A stretch of 33,155 bases of DNA from an uncultured Anaerolineae bacterium (GTDB lineage: Bacteria > Chloroflexota > Anaerolineae > Anaerolineales > Villigracilaceae). Within the stretch, counting starts at the first letter, position 1. The number at the start of each line of letters is the position of its first letter. Below the pieces are notes generated by a model that worked only from the letters and a program-made list of their open reading frames with translations, did not search any database and was not told the origin of the DNA. The translations under genes were made by a program, and so were the position numbers. Shown piece by piece: positions 2,192 through 29,671 of the stretch. The DNA lies in contig CAIVSQ010000527.1 of assembly GCA_903908605.1 (NCBI GenBank), forward strand, positions 1 to 33,155. The letters are read 5' to 3'.

Positions 2192-3898
2192 ATGAAGTCA
2201 ACCTTGCTTATCCTCACTCTTCAAGCAAGTTTTGGCGAACTTGTCCGCGATGGGTTGGATCCGGCGCGGTTTGAGGTATTTTTTACATCAAATTTTTCAG
2301 ACGCGGTTCTCTACGTCCGCCATAATAGTTGCCCAACTGTTTTGCTGGATGTGGAACTGGATGATGTGCAGCTGTCTGTTTTGGATATCGGTTATGCTCT
2401 CCGTCAAATTCAACCCGATATCCAGTTTGTTGTAATTGCTCGCGCTGGTCAGGAACTCGATACTGCTTCCTTGTCCCCTGTTGCCACGCTCCCAAAACCC
2501 ATTTCGCTGCCTGATTTAGGTCAGCTGCTAGAAAAACTAGCTGCGCCTCCTTCAGACACTGGCTCTCTGGAACCAATAATGCCCGATTTTCGTTCTTCAG
2601 AACATCCAATTGAAGATACTTCAAACCTTAGCTGGGCATCCGATGTCAGCCGGGCAGCTCAACAATTAACGCAGCTCACGCTCGAATCTTCTGCCCAGGC
2701 AGCTTTTATTACCCGCGAGCATGAGCTTTGGGCTTATGCCGGGCAGCTTTCACGCGAGGCGGCCCAAGAATTAACCGATTCGATCCAGCGTTATTGGAAT
2801 TCTGAAGGCGAGAGTGATCTTCTGCGCTTTGTTCGCCTCCAGGCGACTGAAGCCCAGCACATGCTTTATGTCCGCAAGCTTGCCGGAAACATGACCCTGG
2901 CGCTTGTCTTTGATGCCGAAACTCCTTTTAGCACCATTCGCTCCCAGGCGGGCAAGCTGGTTAAGAATCTATTTGAAACAACCAGCCCGCAAGCAGCCAG
3001 GCCTGTCGCACCAGTTCAGCCAGTTCCTGTCCAGGAAGTCACCCCTGACGAACCGGATAACGGCGATGATTTTCATGAAATTCCGCCTATTTCCGAATTG
3101 TTGGGCGAAGTTCCACCCCCCAATCCTACCCGTCCCAACATCAACCTTAACCTGCCTTGGGATCAACCCTCCACCACCAGCGCTCCCATGCTGGTGGCTG
3201 AACCGCTCGATCAATCGCAGGGTTCCCCGCAGGTGCAAGCCCCTAGCCTTTCCGAAATTCCACAACCGGAAATGCCTGCACTGAATCAGCGCCGTCCCAT
3301 GCCCGCCATGGATGAGACTTTCTCGGGCCAGCCTGTTCCCTATGAGGCGGATCACAGTATTGAAATCCCCCGTCGGTTCATTCCCGATGATATGCAGGCA
3401 ACCCGCAAGCATTCTGTTACGCCTGATGCTGATCCGAATCGTACTCAATCTCGTGGGGATACCCCCATGGATGGTGCTCATCGTATCCTGCTCGAGCCGC
3501 CCTTCGCCACCCAGGTCAATCTAACCTATACCTGCGTGCTTATCCCGCGTTTTGAACACCACCACCTGGTTGGGAATGCCGCCAGCCGACTAAATGAATG
3601 GATCCCACAGTTATGCGTGGCCTATGGTTGGCGTCTTGAATATATTTCCGTCCGCCCGGATTATTTCCAATGGATTGTGCGCGTACCGCTTAACACGGCG
3701 GCTGGCAGTGTCATTAATGCCATTCGTAAACACACATCCGAGCGTTTCTTTAATGAGTTCCCGCGCTTTAAAGCCGATAACCCATCTGGTGAATTTTGGG
3801 CTCATGGCTTCATTGTTCAGGGTGGTTCGCAGCCGACCCCGCAAAAAGTGATCAAAGAATTTATTCAGACCACCCGCATGCGCCAGGGCTTGCGCTAA
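2192..3898 (+). CDS. receiver-like / roadblock-like protein with a catalytically dead IS200-type (Y1) transposase domain
   Basis: A 568-residue three-part protein. Residues 1-116 look like a response-regulator receiver: D53 in TVLLDVELDD fits the phospho-acceptor and K102 in LPKP the conserved lysine, but the acidic pair after strand 1 is absent (LLILTLQASFGE), so phosphorylation is doubtful. Residues about 150-262 resemble a roadblock/LC7 domain. Residues 265-430 are a Pro/Gln-rich linker. Residues 431-568 align with IS200/IS605 TnpA: YTCVLIPRFE, RLNEWIPQL, GWRLEYISVRPDYFQWIV, then FWAHGFIVQGG and VIKEFIQTTR. The catalytic HUH pair of TnpA (D-H-x-H) is Y481-F-Q483 and the nucleophilic Tyr is F557. 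Domain calls come from reading alone. A domesticated, non-cleaving nucleic-acid or protein-binding module is the inferred role. The gene is isolated, with its own terminator, ahead of polA. Confidence 0.75.
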   Translation: MKSTLLILTLQASFGELVRDGLDPARFEVFFTSNFSDAVLYVRHNSCPTVLLDVELDDVQLSVLDIGYALRQIQPDIQFVVIARAGQELDTASLSPVATLPKPISLPDLGQLLEKLAAPPSDTGSLEPIMPDFRSSEHPIEDTSNLSWASDVSRAAQQLTQLTLESSAQAAFITREHELWAYAGQLSREAAQELTDSIQRYWNSEGESDLLRFVRLQATEAQHMLYVRKLAGNMTLALVFDAETPFSTIRSQAGKLVKNLFETTSPQAARPVAPVQPVPVQEVTPDEPDNGDDFHEIPPISELLGEVPPPNPTRPNINLNLPWDQPSTTSAPMLVAEPLDQSQGSPQVQAPSLSEIPQPEMPALNQRRPMPAMDETFSGQPVPYEADHSIEIPRRFIPDDMQATRKHSVTPDADPNRTQSRGDTPMDGAHRILLEPPFATQVNLTYTCVLIPRFEHHHLVGNAASRLNEWIPQLCVAYGWRLEYISVRPDYFQWIVRVPLNTAAGSVINAIRKHTSERFFNEFPRFKADNPSGEFWAHGFIVQGGSQPTPQKVIKEFIQTTRMRQGLR

Positions 3899-3923
3899 TC
3901 ATTGCTTACCTATTTGTGTTTTT

Positions 3924-3950
3924 CCCGGCCAAAGCGCCGGGATTTTTTTT
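3924..3950 (+). terminator. intrinsic terminator after receiver/TnpA-like gene
   Basis: CCCGGC (3924-3929), 6-base loop, GCCGGG (3936-3941), then eight T residues at 3943-3950. A textbook Rho-independent terminator 25 bp after the stop codon. Confidence 0.92.
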
Positions 3951-4226: not shown

Positions 4227-7058
4227 ATGCCTGCCAAACTTTACCTTATTGATGGACATGCCCTCGCGTATCGCACCTTTTTCGCGCTCACCAGTGGCGC
4301 GGGTGGAGCACGCTGGCAAACTGCCACCGGAGAACCAACCGCTGGTATTTTTGGTTTTGCCTCTGTCTTAATGCGCCTGCTCGATATTGAGCGTCCGGAA
4401 TATATTGCCGTCGCCTTCGATACCGGCAAGACCTTCCGCGACCAGCTCTTCCCCGCGTACAAGGCTACTCGTGCCAAAATGCCAGATGATTTGCGACCGC
4501 AAATTGAGCGCATTCGTCAGATGGTCGACGCTTTCAATATTCCCCGCCTGGAAATGGAAGGCTTTGAGGCCGATGATGTCCTCGGTTCGATTGCTCTTCA
4601 GGCAGCGGCGCAGGGCTTGGGTGTAAAGATCATCACCGGTGACCGCGATCTGCTCCAGTTGGTTGGCGATCACATCATGGTTAACCTGCCCGAAGGTGGC
4701 AAGCTCGCTGATGCCAGGGATTTCATCACCGATGACGATGTTCGCACCAAATTTGGTGTTCCTGCCAACCTGGTGGTTGATTACAAAGCTCTGGTCGGGG
4801 ATACGTCTGACAATATTCCAGGGGTGAAGGGCGTTGGCGAAAAAACCGCCCAAGCTCTCTTCGCCACCTATGCTTCCCTGGATGATATTTACGCCCATCT
4901 CGACCAGTTGCCCGCCAAGCTGCGTACCAAGCTCGAAGAAAACCGCGCGATGGCTTACCTGAGCCGTGATCTGGCTCTCATTCGCACCGATCTTCCCATT
5001 CGGCTCGACCTGGAGCATGCTCGCGCGGACCAGTTTGATTATGCCACGGTCGAGAAGCTCTTCCGTGAGCTGGAATTCCGCACCCTGCTTCCCAAGGTTG
5101 CCCAGCTGCCCGGCGGACCGGCCTTTAACGTCGCCAGACCGGGCCCCGCATCCAAATCATCCGGTTCCTCGCGTGGCGCGCAGATGTCTTTCTTTGCGAC
5201 TGAGCCTGCGCCTGTCGTTGAGTCAACTAGAGCGCCTTCCAATCTCAATACCGTTGTGGTCGATACCCCTGAAAAATTAGCCGACCTGGTTGCCGTGCTT
5301 AACCAGGCTGCGCTCATCTCTTTTGACACCGAAACCACTTCCACCAGCGAAATGCAGGCTGCCCTGGTTGGTATTTCCCTCGCCGTCCAGGCGGGCAGTG
5401 CTTATTACATCCCCGTCGGCCATCTTGCTGGGCCCAATCTGCCAGTGGACCAGGTGCTTGCAGCTCTCACTGCCCCGCTCACCAACCCTTCCATCCCCAA
5501 AATTGGTCACAACGTCAAGTACGATTATCTAGTGCTTGCTCGTCATGGTCTGCCCGTTTCCCCTTTATCCTTTGATACCATGATTGCCGAGTGGCTGGTT
5601 GATCCTTCCTCTCACAACCTTGGTCTAAAAAATCTGGTCCTCGTTCGCCTTGGGGAAGAAATGACCCACATCGAAGAGTTAATTGGCAAAGGAAAAAAAC
5701 AAATTTCCATGGCTGAAGTATCGGTGGCCCAGGTGGCTCCTTATGCCGCCGCCGATGCTGAAACCTGCCTGCGCCTTATGCCCCAGCTCCAGGCAGAAAT
5801 CAAGCGCGATGGTTTGCAGCACCTGATGGACGAGGTTGAGATGCCATTGGTCAGTGTTCTGGCTGGCATGGAGCTGCTTGGGGTCCGTCTTGACCTGGAT
5901 TTCTTCCATAATTTTTCACGTGAACTGACTTCTGGTTTGGCTGACCTGGAAATGCGTATTTATGAACAGGTTGGCAAGCCATTCAATATCAATTCCACCC
6001 AACAGCTTTCAGATATCCTCTTTAACCGCCTTAAACTGGTTCCACCCGACCGTGGTCGCAAAACGGCCAGTGGTCATTACTCCACCTCCGCCGATGTGCT
6101 TGAAGAACTTCGTGGTCAGCATACCGTGGTCGACCTGGTGCTTGAGCATCGTGAGCTTGCCAAGTTAAAATCCACCTATGTTGATTCCCTGCCGGCTGCT
6201 GTCGATCCCAATACCGGGCGGGTGCACACCTCTTACAGCCAGACTGGCTCGGTCACCGGGCGACTCTCCTCCAATAACCCCAACTTGCAAAATATCCCCA
6301 TCCGCACCGAGACAGGCCGACGGGTGCGCAATGGTTTCATCGCCGAGGATGGATATGTCCTGCTCTCCGTTGATTACTCCCAGGTGGAGCTTCGCCTGGT
6401 GGCACTCATGGCGGGTGACGAAGCCATGCTGGATGCATTCCGCGCCGGGCAGGATATTCACACCACCACGGCAGCGGCCATTTACAACCTGCCAATCGAC
6501 AAGGTCACCAAGGATATGCGCCGGCATGCCAAAGCCATCAACTTTGGTCTTATCTACGGTATGTCGCCTTTTGGCCTTACCCGTACCACCGACCTTACCC
6601 TGGGCGAAGCCGAAAATTTTGTCAAGACTTATTTCACCCGCTTTCCTGGTATCAAGCGTTACCTCGATGACACCAAGAAAGTTGCCGCCCAACAGGGTTA
6701 CGTCACCACCTTGCTCGGCCGCCGCCGTTATTTCCCGGCACTCAAAGGCGTGCTCAATGCCCAATTACGCAATCGCGAAGAACGCGAAGCCATCAACGCG
6801 CCGATCCAGGGCACTGCGGCCGACATCATGAAAATGGCCATGCTTAACATCTCGCCAGCCTTTCAACAGGCCGGGCTCAAGGCTCGTATGCTGCTGCAAG
6901 TCCATGATGAGATTGTGATCGAGTGCCCCCGGTCTGAGCTACAACAGACAGCCCGGGTTGTCCAACAAGTGATGGAAACGGCTTATCCGTTGGGTATTCC
7001 GCTCTCAACAGAAGCCCGTTCAGGCATTAGCTGGGGTGGGATGCAAGTCCTGTCCTGA
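4227..7058 (+). CDS. polA: DNA polymerase I
   Basis: A 943-residue family A polymerase, close to the usual full length of about 930. Residues 1-290 are the 5'-3' exonuclease with GDRDLLQLV and DTSDNIPGVKGVGEKTA. Residues about 350-525 are the 3'-5' proofreading domain with its metal ligands present: D367/E369 in FDTET, GHNVKYDYL, and D510 in AAADAE. The polymerase domain carries motif A (SVDYSQVELR, D716), motif B (RRHAKAINFGLIYG, with the Phe that disfavours dideoxynucleotides) and motif C (QVHDEIVIE, D894/E895). All three activities should be intact, so it would fill gaps and replace RNA primers in the cytosol. It is 50 bp ahead of the TPR gene and may be co-transcribed with it. Confidence 0.98.
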   Translation: MPAKLYLIDGHALAYRTFFALTSGAGGARWQTATGEPTAGIFGFASVLMRLLDIERPEYIAVAFDTGKTFRDQLFPAYKATRAKMPDDLRPQIERIRQMVDAFNIPRLEMEGFEADDVLGSIALQAAAQGLGVKIITGDRDLLQLVGDHIMVNLPEGGKLADARDFITDDDVRTKFGVPANLVVDYKALVGDTSDNIPGVKGVGEKTAQALFATYASLDDIYAHLDQLPAKLRTKLEENRAMAYLSRDLALIRTDLPIRLDLEHARADQFDYATVEKLFRELEFRTLLPKVAQLPGGPAFNVARPGPASKSSGSSRGAQMSFFATEPAPVVESTRAPSNLNTVVVDTPEKLADLVAVLNQAALISFDTETTSTSEMQAALVGISLAVQAGSAYYIPVGHLAGPNLPVDQVLAALTAPLTNPSIPKIGHNVKYDYLVLARHGLPVSPLSFDTMIAEWLVDPSSHNLGLKNLVLVRLGEEMTHIEELIGKGKKQISMAEVSVAQVAPYAAADAETCLRLMPQLQAEIKRDGLQHLMDEVEMPLVSVLAGMELLGVRLDLDFFHNFSRELTSGLADLEMRIYEQVGKPFNINSTQQLSDILFNRLKLVPPDRGRKTASGHYSTSADVLEELRGQHTVVDLVLEHRELAKLKSTYVDSLPAAVDPNTGRVHTSYSQTGSVTGRLSSNNPNLQNIPIRTETGRRVRNGFIAEDGYVLLSVDYSQVELRLVALMAGDEAMLDAFRAGQDIHTTTAAAIYNLPIDKVTKDMRRHAKAINFGLIYGMSPFGLTRTTDLTLGEAENFVKTYFTRFPGIKRYLDDTKKVAAQQGYVTTLLGRRRYFPALKGVLNAQLRNREEREAINAPIQGTAADIMKMAMLNISPAFQQAGLKARMLLQVHDEIVIECPRSELQQTARVVQQVMETAYPLGIPLSTEARSGISWGGMQVLS

Positions 7059-7108: not shown

Positions 7109-9397
7109 ATGGCAGGACGTGAAGATATTTTCCAGAAGACAATGAACGAAGGCCACTCGGCCGCCTGGGATAAAAACTGGGCACAGGCTGCCGCTGCCTA
7201 TCTGCGCGCGCTTGCTGAATTTCCTGAGAGTCCCAAGGCTCTTAATAGTTATGCCCTGGCACTATTCCAGCTCGAGAAATACGATGAAGCGCTCACACCA
7301 TACATGCGTTCCGCCCGGGTTGCCCCCGAGGATCCGCTCCCGTTTGAGAAAATTGCTCAGATTAACGAGCGCATGGGCAAGACCAAAGAGGCTGTACAGG
7401 CCGCTTTGTATGCTGCTGAGTTGTACCTCAAACTCAAGGATGTCGACAAAGCCCTTGAGAACTGGCTGATTGTTATTCAACTCAGCCCCGAGAATCTCCA
7501 GGCTCGTTCCCGATTGGCGCTCATTCACGAAAAAACTGCCCAGACTCGCCAGGCTACCATTGACTACATCGCAGTTGCCAGCATTTTACAAAACAGCGGT
7601 AATCCGCAAAAAGCCCTCGAAATCCTTGCGCATGTTGCCCAGATCGACCCCGATAGCAGCGAATTACAGCATGCACTGGCCATTATTAACAAAGGCCAGG
7701 TTCTGCCAAGACCCATGCGCCCCACCGGTGGGACTGGCCCCCTGCGCCTGGAATCTGCTCGTGCCTCCGCCACTCCCCAACCTGATCAGGAAAGCCCCGA
7801 CCCGATTGCGGAAGCCCGCCAACACGCCATGAAGGTCTTTGCAGATGAGCTGTTCGATGCGGATGGCGATAATTCCGAGACTGCTCCCAGGCGAGGTTTG
7901 TCCGTCATGTCCAGCGCACCCTCAGGCGCTCAAGATAATTCAAGCCTGCTGCTCAATATCGGTGCCGCCATTGATGCCGACATGCGCGCCGATGAGACGG
8001 GTGTCCAGGTTGCCCTCAGCAAGGCTCTCGAAGCTGGTTTCAACCACCCCGCAGCCAATTTTGTCGTTGGGCAGATCCTTTGCCACACTGGGGATTTTGA
8101 ACGCGCCCGTGCTTACCTTCAACAGTGCCTGCGCTTTGATGATTATGCCCTCGCTGCCCGTCTGCTGCTCGGTAAGAGCTTGCGTGGCCTCAAGCGTGAG
8201 TCCCAGGCGTCTATTGAATATCTCGAAGCACTAAAGATAGCGGATGTATCCGTCGCTCCACGCGAACAGGGCGTGACCCTGCACCAGGCCTATGAGCCTC
8301 TTCTTGAAACCGTCCGAGATGAAAAAGATCTCAAAGCGCATCTCAAGCTGTGCGAAAATGTGGAAGAAATGTTGATTCGCGCCAACTGGCGTAAACATCT
8401 CCAGAAAATGCGCTCCGAAATGCCCAATAACGAAGGGCAGATTCAGCCACTGGCAGAAATCGTCATCCAGGCCCAATCCAGCCAGGTGATCGAGTCGATG
8501 AAAATGATCAACGAACTCGCCCGCACCAACTACCTGCGTTCTGCCATGGACGAAGCCTTCCACATGCTTTTATCCGCGCCGACCTACTTGCCTCTGCATA
8601 TCCTTATCGCCGATTTACTTGTCCGTGAGGATCGCAAGCAAGAGGCCATTAGCAAACTGAATGCCGTTGCCGCCGCCTATGCCGCTCGTGACGAAGGCAC
8701 CCAGTCGGTCAATATCCTGCGTCGCATTGTCGAGCTTGCTCCCATGGACCTGGATGTTCGCAAACGTTTGATCAAACGCATGGTCGATCGCGATCAGTTG
8801 GATGAAGCCATTGGTGAGTATGTTGACCTGGCAGATATTTATTATCGTCTTGCCGAACTTGACCAGGCTCGCAAGACCTTCGCCACCGCCCTCGATTTGG
8901 CCCGCCGGCCCAACACCAACCGCGCCTGGAGTGTCAAATTACTCCAGCGCATGGCTGATATTGATTTGCAAAGCCTGGATTGGCGCCAGGCAATTCAAGC
9001 CTATGAGCAAATTCGCGCCATTGCTCCTGAGGATGCCTCCATTCGCGAAACCCTGATTGATCTCAATCTTCGCCTGGCCCAGGTTCCCCAGGCCCAGGCT
9101 GAGTTGGATTCTTTCCAGGCTTTCCTCGAACAAAACCAGCCCGCTGGGTTGCTTCCCTTCCTGCAAAAAATGGTTGATGAACATCCTGGGCAGGCCATGT
9201 TTGCCCGCGCCTTGGCTGCCCAACTGCATAAAAATGGGCGCACATCCGAGGCTATTACCCTGCTTGATGCCCTTGGAGAAAAGCTGATGGACTCCGGCGA
9301 TCTCACCTCACTAGTGACAGTCGTAAACCAGATCCTTCTCATGAATCCCCCTAACGCCGACCAGTACCGCGCCTTGCTGAGCCAAATCTCAACTTAA
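7109..9397 (+). CDS. tetratricopeptide-repeat protein
   Basis: A 762-residue soluble protein built from TPR-type helical pairs. Clear repeats fill residues about 19-200, with the W/G/Y/A/P spacing of the family (for example AWDKNWAQAAAAYLRALAEF and ALNSYALALFQLEKYDEAL). Residues about 200-285 are a Pro/Ala/Ser-rich linker, and repeats resume to about 750. There is no signal peptide or membrane segment, so it is expected in the cytosol as a protein-interaction scaffold. No catalytic domain is seen and the partner is unknown. It lies 50 bp downstream of polA with no terminator between, so co-transcription is plausible, and it ends at a strong terminator. The upstream ribosome site is weak (GGTG). 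Confidence 0.88.
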   Translation: MAGREDIFQKTMNEGHSAAWDKNWAQAAAAYLRALAEFPESPKALNSYALALFQLEKYDEALTPYMRSARVAPEDPLPFEKIAQINERMGKTKEAVQAALYAAELYLKLKDVDKALENWLIVIQLSPENLQARSRLALIHEKTAQTRQATIDYIAVASILQNSGNPQKALEILAHVAQIDPDSSELQHALAIINKGQVLPRPMRPTGGTGPLRLESARASATPQPDQESPDPIAEARQHAMKVFADELFDADGDNSETAPRRGLSVMSSAPSGAQDNSSLLLNIGAAIDADMRADETGVQVALSKALEAGFNHPAANFVVGQILCHTGDFERARAYLQQCLRFDDYALAARLLLGKSLRGLKRESQASIEYLEALKIADVSVAPREQGVTLHQAYEPLLETVRDEKDLKAHLKLCENVEEMLIRANWRKHLQKMRSEMPNNEGQIQPLAEIVIQAQSSQVIESMKMINELARTNYLRSAMDEAFHMLLSAPTYLPLHILIADLLVREDRKQEAISKLNAVAAAYAARDEGTQSVNILRRIVELAPMDLDVRKRLIKRMVDRDQLDEAIGEYVDLADIYYRLAELDQARKTFATALDLARRPNTNRAWSVKLLQRMADIDLQSLDWRQAIQAYEQIRAIAPEDASIRETLIDLNLRLAQVPQAQAELDSFQAFLEQNQPAGLLPFLQKMVDEHPGQAMFARALAAQLHKNGRTSEAITLLDALGEKLMDSGDLTSLVTVVNQILLMNPPNADQYRALLSQIST

Positions 9398-26903: not shown

Positions 26904-27719
26904 CTAAGGCACGCCCAGCATCACCACGGTGATATTGTCATGCCCGCCGCGTGCGTTCGCCAGATCAACCAGTGCTTGCGCCGTCGCGTCTGTGGCGACT
27001 CCGTTCTTCTCCCGCACAATTTGTAAAATTTCGCTTTCGCCAACCAGGTCTGTCAGTCCATCTGTGCACAGCACCAGCAGGTCACCTTTTTGCAGGTTGC
27101 AACCCTGGTTGGCCAGTGCCTGCCGGTCGGTTTCGCCCGCTTTCAGGAACATGCGCAGGTCTGCCTCTGCCGGGCTGACTGAGCCCAGGTAACGCCTAAT
27201 GACATGCATGTTCGGATGCGTCTTCAGCCCGGTCTGGTCCAGGATGCCTTTCTCCAGCGCTTCCTGTACCCAGGTGTGATCCTTGGTCAACTGCCGGATC
27301 TGCTGCCCCCGCACCAGGTAAATGCGCGAGTCGCCCACGTAAGCCGTGTAGAGCTGCTGCCCGATCACCCACGCGCAGGCCGCCGTTGCGCCCATTCCCT
27401 CGAAGCGCATATCCTCACGCGCCTTTTCCGCCACCGCTTCGCTGACCTGCCTGAAGCAGCTCTCAAAGACCGCCGTTGGATGCCCGCCCTCGCGTTTTTC
27501 CACCGCCGCGCTGATCAGGTTCACCGCCATCTCTGCCGCCACCTCTCCGGCCCGGTGCCCGCCAATCCCATCTGACACCACGGCCAGGACCGAGGGAGTC
27601 GGGTTTTTGGGGCTCAGCAGGTAGGCCGACACCGCGAAGTTATCTTCATTATTCTTGCCAGACATCCCTGGGTGGGTTTGCGCGGCGACGTACAGGTGGG
27701 AACGGTTCGTTCGGATCAT
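26904..27719 (-). CDS. PP2C-family (PPM) serine/threonine protein phosphatase
   Basis: A 271-residue stand-alone PP2C catalytic domain with the metal-binding and core motifs in order: NEDNFAV, VSDGIGGHRAGEVA, GMGATA, YVGDSRIYLVR, LTKDHTWV, LCTDGLTDLV and GGHDNITVV. All aspartate metal ligands appear present, so it should be an active Mn/Mg-dependent phosphatase in the cytosol. Its start overlaps the stop of the upstream FHA protein by 4 bp (ATGA on the minus strand), so the two are co-translated and likely act together: FHA domains bind phosphothreonine and PP2C removes phosphate. No Hanks-type kinase is in the window. The start has no separate strong ribosome site, in keeping with coupling. 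Confidence 0.96.
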   Translation of the reverse strand: MIRTNRSHLYVAAQTHPGMSGKNNEDNFAVSAYLLSPKNPTPSVLAVVSDGIGGHRAGEVAAEMAVNLISAAVEKREGGHPTAVFESCFRQVSEAVAEKAREDMRFEGMGATAACAWVIGQQLYTAYVGDSRIYLVRGQQIRQLTKDHTWVQEALEKGILDQTGLKTHPNMHVIRRYLGSVSPAEADLRMFLKAGETDRQALANQGCNLQKGDLLVLCTDGLTDLVGESEILQIVREKNGVATDATAQALVDLANARGGHDNITVVMLGVP

Positions 27720-29671
27720 TTTTCTTTATGTAGGGTAGTGACTTTTGGTTTGAGGGCCACCGGCGGCTTGGCCAGCACAAACCGGTAAACCAACACCCCA
27801 AAGTGTATCATGTCGCCGTGTTTCAAAACACGCCCCTTTGGGGGCACCAGTTCGTAATTTACCCACGTCCCCGCGATCGAATTTTGATCGAGCAGCGTGA
27901 ATTTGTCATCTTCCCCTCGCCGCACCCGTGCATGCAGCGCCGAGATCGCAGGGTGATCCAATATCACCGTCGCCTGGGTCGGGTCCGTGCCCAGGGTCAG
28001 TTCGCGCCCATGCAGCCCGATCGGGTCGCCCTTCATGGGCGTCCCATCCCCGGCCAATCGCACAAAATATGCCGGGGGCGGCGCATCCCTGCGCAGCAGC
28101 CACGGGAATGGGTTTCCCTTTGGGTTGCGCGGGGCTTCTACAATGCTTTTTACCGGTTGAGTCAGCGGGTCAGATTTCGCCGCGCGCGACTTGCGCCACT
28201 CGGCCAGTCGGGTTAGTCCACGCCGCCCGCCCAGGATGATCACACCCAGCAGTACACCGGCTGCCAATACCATAAAGCTGATCGTTACCGCCGTGCGGTT
28301 GCGCAAGATCAGCCCCGCCATCCCGCCTGGTGGTTCTACGATCGTCACCACCACGGGCACCTCGCTGCTTTTCTGCATCAGCCCCAGGTCGTCTTCCACT
28401 TCCACCTGCAGCGTATGTTCGCCGCTTACCTGGTACCCGCTCAGGTCCCAGCTAAAACTGGTGAACGGTTCCCTAATGTGTTCGCTGGCTTTTTCCCCAT
28501 CAATGAACAGCGTTGAGCGTACCAGTCGCCGCTCACGTCCATCCGGGAACTCCACCAACAGCGAGATCTCCTGCTGCTTCGGCAGGAAGGTGGACACGTC
28601 AAAAGGAGTCTTCGCGTTTTGTCGCATAATCTCAATCGGTGGTGATAGCAGCGCCACGCTGGGCGCCTGTATGTCAATCGCGAAAGTCACCGCCGGGCTT
28701 GTCAGGGTCAGTTTGTCTTTATTGACCTGTACCGAGAGCGTATGCGTTCCGGCGGTACGCACCTTTGAGGTGTAACTCAGCTTGTAGACATTGCGCAGCG
28801 GTGCCAGCCACTCTTCGGGGTCTGGCAGGGTTTCCCCACCGCTGAAAAACACATCACGCCCGTTGGTGGCTGCCGCCAGGTCTTGCAACGCCAGCGTTCC
28901 GGCGTTATCCACAAATGTATTTGCATCCGTGATCCATACATACACCCGCACCCCGGACTGTTTCGCCCGGCTGATCAGATCGTCCAACCCTTTCAGGTCC
29001 TTGCTTGCCAGGTGAGGTGAAACCAGCAGTACCGCCTTCTTGACCCCTGGCCCGACTGGCACATCCAGGGCCACATCCAATGCAAAGGTCAGCGCCGAAA
29101 GCCCACTGGTTGACGTGCGCAATGCCGGGTCAAAACTCTCCAACCTTGCCTTCCAATCGGCCGGTGTCAACTTGTTGGCGATCATGCCCCCGTTCCAAAC
29201 CAGCCCCAGCCGGTCCTGGCTGTCGGCTGGGCGTTCCTCCGCCCAATTCGTCAGGGCCGCCAAAATCTTCTCATAGCGAGCATCACCCTGCGCGTCGCGG
29301 ATGCCCAGGGCTGGGTCCGAATTGATCGCCAGCACAAAGCTCATCGGCGTCACCTGCCCCACCAGGCTGTCCGGCACAATCAACTCACCGTTTTCCAGCA
29401 CAACCACATCGCCGCTCTTGAGGTTGGCCAGGAAATTCCCCTGGTCATCAAACGGATCCATGTAAGTGCTGATCACCGGGAAAGCGCTTACATCCGGTTT
29501 CTCGATCTCCGCCAGCCCCCCACCCCCCGACTGGGCGCGCGCCGAAATCAACGGGGCCAACAGGGCCACGATCATCCAAACAACAAAACAGCGTTTACAA
29601 ACGCGAAAAAATTCCAAAGAAACAATTCCTATATATATGGAATCATACCCGAAAAACCGCCTCTCGCGCAC
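27716..29671 (-). CDS. membrane-anchored VWA-like protein with cytoplasmic FHA domain
   Basis: A 651-residue protein. A hydrophobic signal or anchor at about 28-44 ends in SARA-Q. Residues about 85-300 look like a von Willebrand A fold (MSFVLAINSDPAL, KKAVLLVSPH, VRVYVWITDANTF), but the MIDAS DxSxS motif is degenerate (INSDPAL), so metal-dependent binding is doubtful. Residues 300-447 are beta-rich and Ig-like. A membrane helix lies at about 460-482, then a basic linker and an FHA domain at about 552-633 (ELTLGTDPTQ, HPAISALHARV, DQNSIAGTWVN, LKHGDMIHFG). This predicts an outside sensor joined to a phosphothreonine-binding module inside. The GTG start is chosen because GGGAGG lies 9 bases upstream. 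It overlaps PP2C by 4 bp. Confidence 0.85.
   Translation of the reverse strand: MRERRFFGYDSIYIGIVSLEFFRVCKRCFVVWMIVALLAPLISARAQSGGGGLAEIEKPDVSAFPVISTYMDPFDDQGNFLANLKSGDVVVLENGELIVPDSLVGQVTPMSFVLAINSDPALGIRDAQGDARYEKILAALTNWAEERPADSQDRLGLVWNGGMIANKLTPADWKARLESFDPALRTSTSGLSALTFALDVALDVPVGPGVKKAVLLVSPHLASKDLKGLDDLISRAKQSGVRVYVWITDANTFVDNAGTLALQDLAAATNGRDVFFSGGETLPDPEEWLAPLRNVYKLSYTSKVRTAGTHTLSVQVNKDKLTLTSPAVTFAIDIQAPSVALLSPPIEIMRQNAKTPFDVSTFLPKQQEISLLVEFPDGRERRLVRSTLFIDGEKASEHIREPFTSFSWDLSGYQVSGEHTLQVEVEDDLGLMQKSSEVPVVVTIVEPPGGMAGLILRNRTAVTISFMVLAAGVLLGVIILGGRRGLTRLAEWRKSRAAKSDPLTQPVKSIVEAPRNPKGNPFPWLLRRDAPPPAYFVRLAGDGTPMKGDPIGLHGRELTLGTDPTQATVILDHPAISALHARVRRGEDDKFTLLDQNSIAGTWVNYELVPPKGRVLKHGDMIHFGVLVYRFVLAKPPVALKPKVTTLHKEK

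Follow-up and report, generated by a model that had tools for sequence, protein, structure and literature searches.

In a stretch of 33,155 nucleotides from an uncultured Anaerolineae bacterium (contig CAIVSQ010000527.1 of assembly GCA_903908605.1, order Anaerolineales, phylum Chloroflexota), which we call the window, one open reading frame encodes a protein of 568 residues in which, our analysis supports, a domesticated and apparently catalytically dead fold of the IS200/IS605 transposase TnpA (the Y1 family) sits behind a receiver and a roadblock domain. A preliminary description, drawn from the letters of the window, had proposed just such a domesticated transposase in a signalling protein, and that proposal is upheld here. 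Our analysis adds what that description had no means of seeing: the neighborhood of polA, the broad conservation and the paralogues that consist of Y1 alone. On balance, we favor a dimerizing or partner-binding role for the dead TnpA domain within a non-catalytic roadblock signalling scaffold.

The TnpA fold, which extends over about residues 441 to 560, is borne out by Pfam, by profiles compared with structures and by Foldseek. Pfam Y1_Tnp (PF01797) matches residues 441–559 (E 2.1e-13; 50.9 bits, with the cut-off at 23), and the NCBIfam model transpos_IS200 matches at 8e-13, yet under its cut-off (48.7 versus 55 bits). A phmmer search found TnpA structures, 2fyx being the best at 9.9e-06, and hmmsearch with a profile of 53 of the 54 Y1 domains of the family (the partial L083 was omitted) matched them at 3.5e-19. 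Among the best 50 of 1604 Foldseek matches to the AlphaFold model, a kind of comparison that the preliminary description had named as a check, rows 1–14 hold TnpA from ISDra2 and from Sulfolobus tokodaii (target template-modelling [TM] scores 0.69–0.78, root-mean-square deviation [rmsd] 6.9–11.7); Rag-type GTPases first appear in row 15, IS608 TnpA in row 21 and response regulators in row 39. The TnpA rows overall have target TM-scores mostly of 0.6–0.8 and rmsd often of 7–12, probably high because the model carries the linker, and 2fyx, in row 29, has an rmsd of 3.4.

The catalytic residues of this fold are gone from the window protein. The motif D-Y-F-Q-W begins at residue 490, so that the positions equivalent to the two histidines of the HUH motif hold Y491 and Q493, and the position of the nucleophilic tyrosine holds F557; the preliminary description was thus right that all three positions are changed and right about F557, but its Y481 and Q483 were numbered ten too low. 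The loss among homologues, for which it had proposed a survey, is complete for the histidines and less uniform for the tyrosine. Both histidines are kept in none of 66 roadblock-fused Y1 domains and one is kept in 8, while at position 557 there are 47 F, 17 Y, 1 L and 1 M (the last in L239, which aligns poorly); of 16 TnpA controls, 14 retain the pair, and their position 557 shows 12 Y, 1 F, 1 H and 2 gaps. A different register that would restore the HUH motif was rejected: MAFFT, run on 57 rows and on a larger set, gave the same register as did the hmmsearch matches to TnpA structures and an hhalign comparison of the two dead clades. As to mobile context, the genome holds one full copy and one Y1-only paralogue, and a Pfam scan of 18 proteins of the window showed no tnpB.

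The layout of the remaining chain, receiver, roadblock and linker ahead of TnpA, agrees with that first proposed, both in structure prediction and in the survey of homologues. An AlphaFold model of the 568-residue protein, built with 37 family members, has a predicted local distance difference test (pLDDT) score per block of 83–97 across the three domains and mostly 41–61 between roadblock and Y1. The window protein alone misses the cut-off of Pfam Response_reg (12.4 versus 30.2 bits), which is exceeded in three of four other members scanned (L110, L114, L121 and L126), and a whole-family profile of all 37 complete sequences from loci of the window's order matches response-regulator structures at best at 2.9e-15. 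The acidic pair for Mg2+ is indeed missing, being replaced by T9-L10 (position 9 is T in 28 and D in 5 of 41 aligned rows, and position 10 is P in 25), but the domain is not wholly degenerate, because the phospho-acceptor D53 is kept (D in 40 of 41 rows); the conserved K102 is kept in 35 of the 41. The roadblock, too, was correctly recognized: a profile of 57 rows (the window domain and 56 of 83 listed roadblock rows) matches MglB structures best, at 1.5e-10, and Foldseek with the roadblock alone finds MglB and LAMTOR/Ragulator chains (query TM-scores 0.53–0.63). Pfam Robl_LC7 does not list the window's roadblock domain and matches 8 of the 57 family members at E up to 1, the best at 4.7e-05. 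The long linker is proline-rich as described, with 32 prolines in 170 residues. The longest members (L110, L112–L115 and others) have several hundred residues between receiver and roadblock, proline- and acid-rich by eye in L110, and Pfam matched nothing there in the same four members scanned. The coordinates are collected in Table 1.

Table 1. Features of the 568-residue protein gene and its downstream neighbors in the window.
Feature	Positions	Strand	Evidence
Whole gene: pseudo-receiver, roadblock, linker and dead TnpA, 568 aa	2192..3898	+	one open frame
Pseudo-receiver, residues 1-118	2192..2545	+	family profile against response-regulator structures, column counts, pLDDT 89-97 per block
MglB-type roadblock, residues 148-262	2633..2977	+	MglB profile match, Foldseek, AlphaFold
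Pro-rich low-confidence linker, residues 263-440	2978..3511	+	pLDDT mostly 41-61 per block, Pro count
Dead IS200/IS605 TnpA (Y1) domain, residues 441-568	3512..3895	+	Pfam, phmmer, family profile, Foldseek
Former HUH motif, now Y491-F-Q493	3662..3670	+	alignment with TnpA control rows
Former catalytic Tyr, now F557	3860..3862	+	alignment with TnpA control rows
Terminator-like hairpin and T run, between gene and polA	3923..3942	+	6 G-C pairs, eight T
polA, DNA polymerase I, conserved downstream neighbor	4227..7058	+	DNA_pol_A 4e-149
Tetratricopeptide-repeat (TPR) protein	7109..9397	+	homologue in 27/61 loci (own locus cut before it)

The fusion is widespread in the class. Several of the locus sets used here were chosen for having matches, so linkage counts drawn from them are not a random sample; a separate sampled survey covers 141 genomes of the class. 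The whole protein as query found some match in 54 of 61 genomes, its own included, some of them to the receiver or TnpA only. Receiver, roadblock and Y1 lie in one frame in 37 of 61 loci of the window's order (L001, L032–L091), three of the 61 are TnpA controls, and the rest carry roadblock-Y1, receiver-roadblock or Y1 by itself. In other families of the class, 19 of 20 loci, picked for roadblock matches in mostly long frames, carry the complete set of domains, the frames being 549–1256 codons long; among four members scanned, L110 and L114 match both Response_reg and Y1_Tnp above the Pfam cut-offs. Another set of 20 loci, mostly outside the order, comprises 3 complete proteins (L092, L093 and L110), 16 receiver-roadblock proteins without Y1 and 1 TnpA control. 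A search with a nine-row alignment gave 144 contigs, the 80 named ones listed being titled Anaerolineales, Anaerolineae or Chloroflexi, with one Herpetosiphon sp. Across the phylum, the roadblock profile at 1e-10 found 18 of 201 genomes, 17 of them within the class, and in the sampled survey a roadblock match at 0.001 occurred in 52 of the 141 genomes, ordinary MglB-like proteins counted too.

In a maximum-likelihood tree of 92 rows (3 of the 95 aligned, L258, L265 and L239, were omitted; columns are few, and the midpoint root served for drawing only), a branch with support 100/99 splits 78 dead domains from 14 TnpA-type rows, of which two (L257 and L268) lack a full HUH motif. L092, although a member of a different family in the class, is counted in the tree with the fused rows of the window's order. 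The best reading is that TnpA was domesticated once, as a non-catalytic dimerizing or partner-binding module. Among the four closest pairs, which are not independent as L036 is in two, the rate of nonsynonymous substitution (dN) is 0.02–0.15 in Y1, with the synonymous rate (dS) near or above 1 or not computable, 0.04–0.13 in the roadblock and 0.23–0.63 in receiver and linker; where dS could be computed, Y1 dN/dS is about 0.05 and 0.10. The dead Y1 domain is thus under purifying selection and maintained, its dN being low and like that of the roadblock. One could also envision an IS200 relic that was fused in frame to a regulator gene by chance and is now decaying, as the missing catalytic residues would allow; but the fusion recurs in tens of genomes of different families, the dead domains group together in the tree and selection is purifying, so that this is scarcely credible and we rejected it.

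We sought polA downstream on the same strand in 105 loci, 103 of which gave a family match in that search; the other two (L236 and L237) have weak roadblock matches in the survey. Of 60 complete receiver-roadblock-Y1 loci, 44 have polA within 800 bp and 6 within 5 kb, as does L063, a split frame. It is downstream in 2 of 4 roadblock-Y1 loci, in 9 of 23 receiver-roadblock loci (2 others stop at the contig end) and in 2 of 12 Y1-only frames, both of these (L065 and L083) cut at the contig end. Three lone roadblocks of 152–191 codons (L232, L233 and L234, family f49), with no receiver or Y1, lie directly before polA. Upstream of each of them is a frame of 676–709 codons. On the other side of the family genes, the upstream neighbors mostly vary, whereas polA is constant. 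polA itself was present in 140 of the 141 sampled genomes. Among the 52 sampled genomes with a roadblock match, this lies directly before polA in 19 and within about 2 kb in 2 more (G079 and G222), a count made by comparing listings by eye, with individual loci consulted for partial matches, in which several of the 19 (G068, G087, G121 and G148) rest on weak roadblock matches. Upstream of polA in 20 further genomes of the class (L212–L231), no family domain was found at E 0.05, two of these stretches being too short at fewer than 350 bases, nor was any domain of the family found before polA in 12 other loci (L240–L251), so many members of the class lack the gene at this place. Because proteins without Y1 also precede polA, the data suggest that the roadblock module is the constant neighbor, and the lone roadblocks and receiver-roadblock proteins count against an ancestral link between polA and Y1. 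Gaps to polA, determined in 58 loci, are at most 30 bp or overlapping in 13, and a terminator-like hairpin lies in the gap in 11, the window included (a count with no shuffle control), which led us to reject a single operon with polA as a general rule. In a separate scan, terminator-like sites numbered 4, as compared to 3.1 expected in shuffles, but the one at 3923-3942 has 6 G-C pairs and eight T. The window gene and polA may be transcribed apart, because such a hairpin intervenes between them.

Under the role that we favor, the pseudo-receiver at the N terminus would take input or bind a partner, the MglB-type roadblock would be a dimer platform, and the long, flexible, proline-rich tether would carry the dead TnpA domain as a dimerizing or partner-binding module in place of a DNA cutter. 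Both the roadblock and TnpA folds would presumably dimerize, the main ligand of the dead domain would be a protein rather than DNA, and the protein probably serves in signalling, with small-GTPase, motility or repair control as candidates. The charge of the dead domain bears on this choice of ligand. In other families of the class (20 rows) the domain is acidic (median net charge -6, isoelectric point [pI] 4.8), in the 43 rows of the window's order, with L092 counted among them, it is basic (median net +3, pI 9.1), and in four TnpA controls the medians are +7 and 9.7. hhalign joins the basic and acidic dead clades (99.5%, 9.9e-23), and the acidic clade by itself (19 of the 20 Y1 rows; L126, a near copy of L124, was omitted) still matches TnpA structures at 2e-14. 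Since the homologous domain is acidic in other families, binding of hairpin DNA is unlikely as a shared role of the dead domains, although nucleic-acid binding is possible in the window's order, where the domain is still basic. The dead domain might nevertheless sense hairpins or flaps of single-stranded DNA and thereby couple the state of DNA, perhaps gap filling by Pol I, to roadblock signalling: TnpA folds have been solved with transposon-end DNA (2xma and 2vhg, by their titles), conserved arginines such as R562 (54 of 57 rows) persist beside the basic charge, and polA is the neighbor. We nonetheless regard such a sensor as unlikely, because the acidic homologues share the architecture and mostly the polA neighbor, and because lone roadblock and receiver-roadblock proteins stand before polA without any Y1 domain. 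Of the two functions first suggested for the domain, hairpin binding is thus weakened and protein binding favored.

A further possibility is that the protein is an auxiliary regulator (GTPase-activating protein, guanine nucleotide exchange factor or scaffold) of an MglA-like small GTPase, in effect a RomR-MglB-like unit in one chain. Two findings speak for it: the roadblock profile has its best match in MglB, and 58 of 61 genomes (its own included) encode an MglA-like small GTPase, matched with E up to 1e-20. We hold it to be quite improbable, however, as Robl_LC7 proteins of ordinary length, which would be simpler partners, occur in 28 of 31 genomes, two in its own, and as the GTPase gene lies elsewhere, after a DUF4388 gene and ahead of hydrolase and V4R-like frames. 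This GTPase (L286 1188-1730 and relatives), 180 residues long in the window's own genome, is very conserved, with at least 72% identity in 56 of 61 genomes, its own included.

Y1 domains of this kind also occur by themselves. Ten complete Y1-only paralogues (L072–L081) have 173–218 codons, and their neighbors were assigned by BLAST clusters with one representative of each scanned with Pfam. A methyl-accepting chemotaxis protein gene lies beside five (L074–L077 and L080), with CheW in L074, L076, L077 and L080, and MotA, MotB or FliL genes in L074, L075, L077 and L080; in four others (L073, L078, L079 and L081) the paralogue adjoins an Mrr-like nuclease, TPR or histidine-kinase gene. These settings, shared by nine of the ten, fit a signalling rather than a mobile-element role. 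The paralogue from the window's own genome (L072) has neither kind of setting. At L072 6626-7012, this paralogue of 189 residues adjoins a 272-codon frame with a receiver-profile match and a 2077-codon frame. Because L070, which encodes roadblock and Y1 in 374 codons, shares these Mrr-like, TPR, kinase and receiver neighbors, Y1-only forms may derive from loss of the front domains. A broader history, which we put forward as doubtful, would begin with a single capture of TnpA, by an ancestor that several Anaerolineae lineages share; the enzyme would then have lost catalysis and become a docking module or sensor tying roadblock signalling of the small-GTPase type to DNA polymerase I, with copies lacking receiver and roadblock later sent to chemotaxis/motor and kinase clusters, the dead transposase fold being a reusable bacterial signalling domain.

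Several points weigh against the partner-binding role. The arrangement of the domains relative to one another has no confident prediction, since the predicted TM-score of the AlphaFold model is 0.36 as compared to the high pLDDT of the domains themselves. The basic charge of the dead domain in the window's own order counts in the same direction. Y1 is dispensable for the wider family, because 16 of the 20 loci mostly outside the order do without it. Furthermore, polA is missing downstream in 10 of the 60 complete loci (the sequence of L127 stops 664 bp past the gene) and in 12 of the 23 receiver-roadblock loci, and terminator-like hairpins stand in some of the gaps.

The preliminary description had known of no described system with the receiver-roadblock-TnpA architecture, and our searches of an open-licence library likewise turned up no account of it; a paper on Chloroflexi in which a Y1 Tnp protein is named deals with the neighborhood of a nitrite reductase and not with the 568-residue protein (PMC8756737). 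If our reading is correct, few bacterial examples would show so clearly how a transposase can become a regulatory domain without catalysis, here probably of one origin, wide in the class and under strong selection, with descendants in different signalling neighborhoods. Since family libraries recognize nothing but an IS200-like transposase in the C terminus, proteins of this kind may be catalogued as mobile elements. The conserved spot before polA offers a tangible starting point for asking whether roadblock signalling and DNA repair are linked in these Chloroflexota. Elsewhere in the window, a frame on the reverse strand (27716-29671) encodes 651 residues with a forkhead-associated (FHA) domain at the C terminus.

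Compared with known systems, the protein resembles RomR, which has a proline-rich region, in its receiver followed by a flexible proline-rich region and in its tie to roadblock biology. To our knowledge, the RomR chain has neither a roadblock nor a TnpA fold. RomR, a partner of MglA and MglB in their work, is named as a receiver protein (PMC6785124), and MglB is the partner of a Ras-like GTPase in an account that describes the MglA and MglB families and their ties to response regulators (PMC4316618). To MglB and other Roadblock/LC7 regulators the likeness is the roadblock fold, found here within a larger chain and with no Robl_LC7 match for the window domain. TnpA-REP (RAYT) proteins are presented in two sources as domesticated Y1 descendants (PMC6006769, PMC8266576), the former of which sorts into classes the TnpA-Y1 proteins with a common HuH/Y core; the likeness is domestication of Y1, but that core is not found here, the HUH pair being gone in every fused row, and the dead domain is fused to a receiver and a roadblock. 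With IS200/IS605 TnpA itself (IS608, ISDra2) the protein has in common the fold of residues 441–560, and it differs in lacking the HUH pair and the catalytic tyrosine, in being fused to signalling domains, and in its chromosomal setting by polA.
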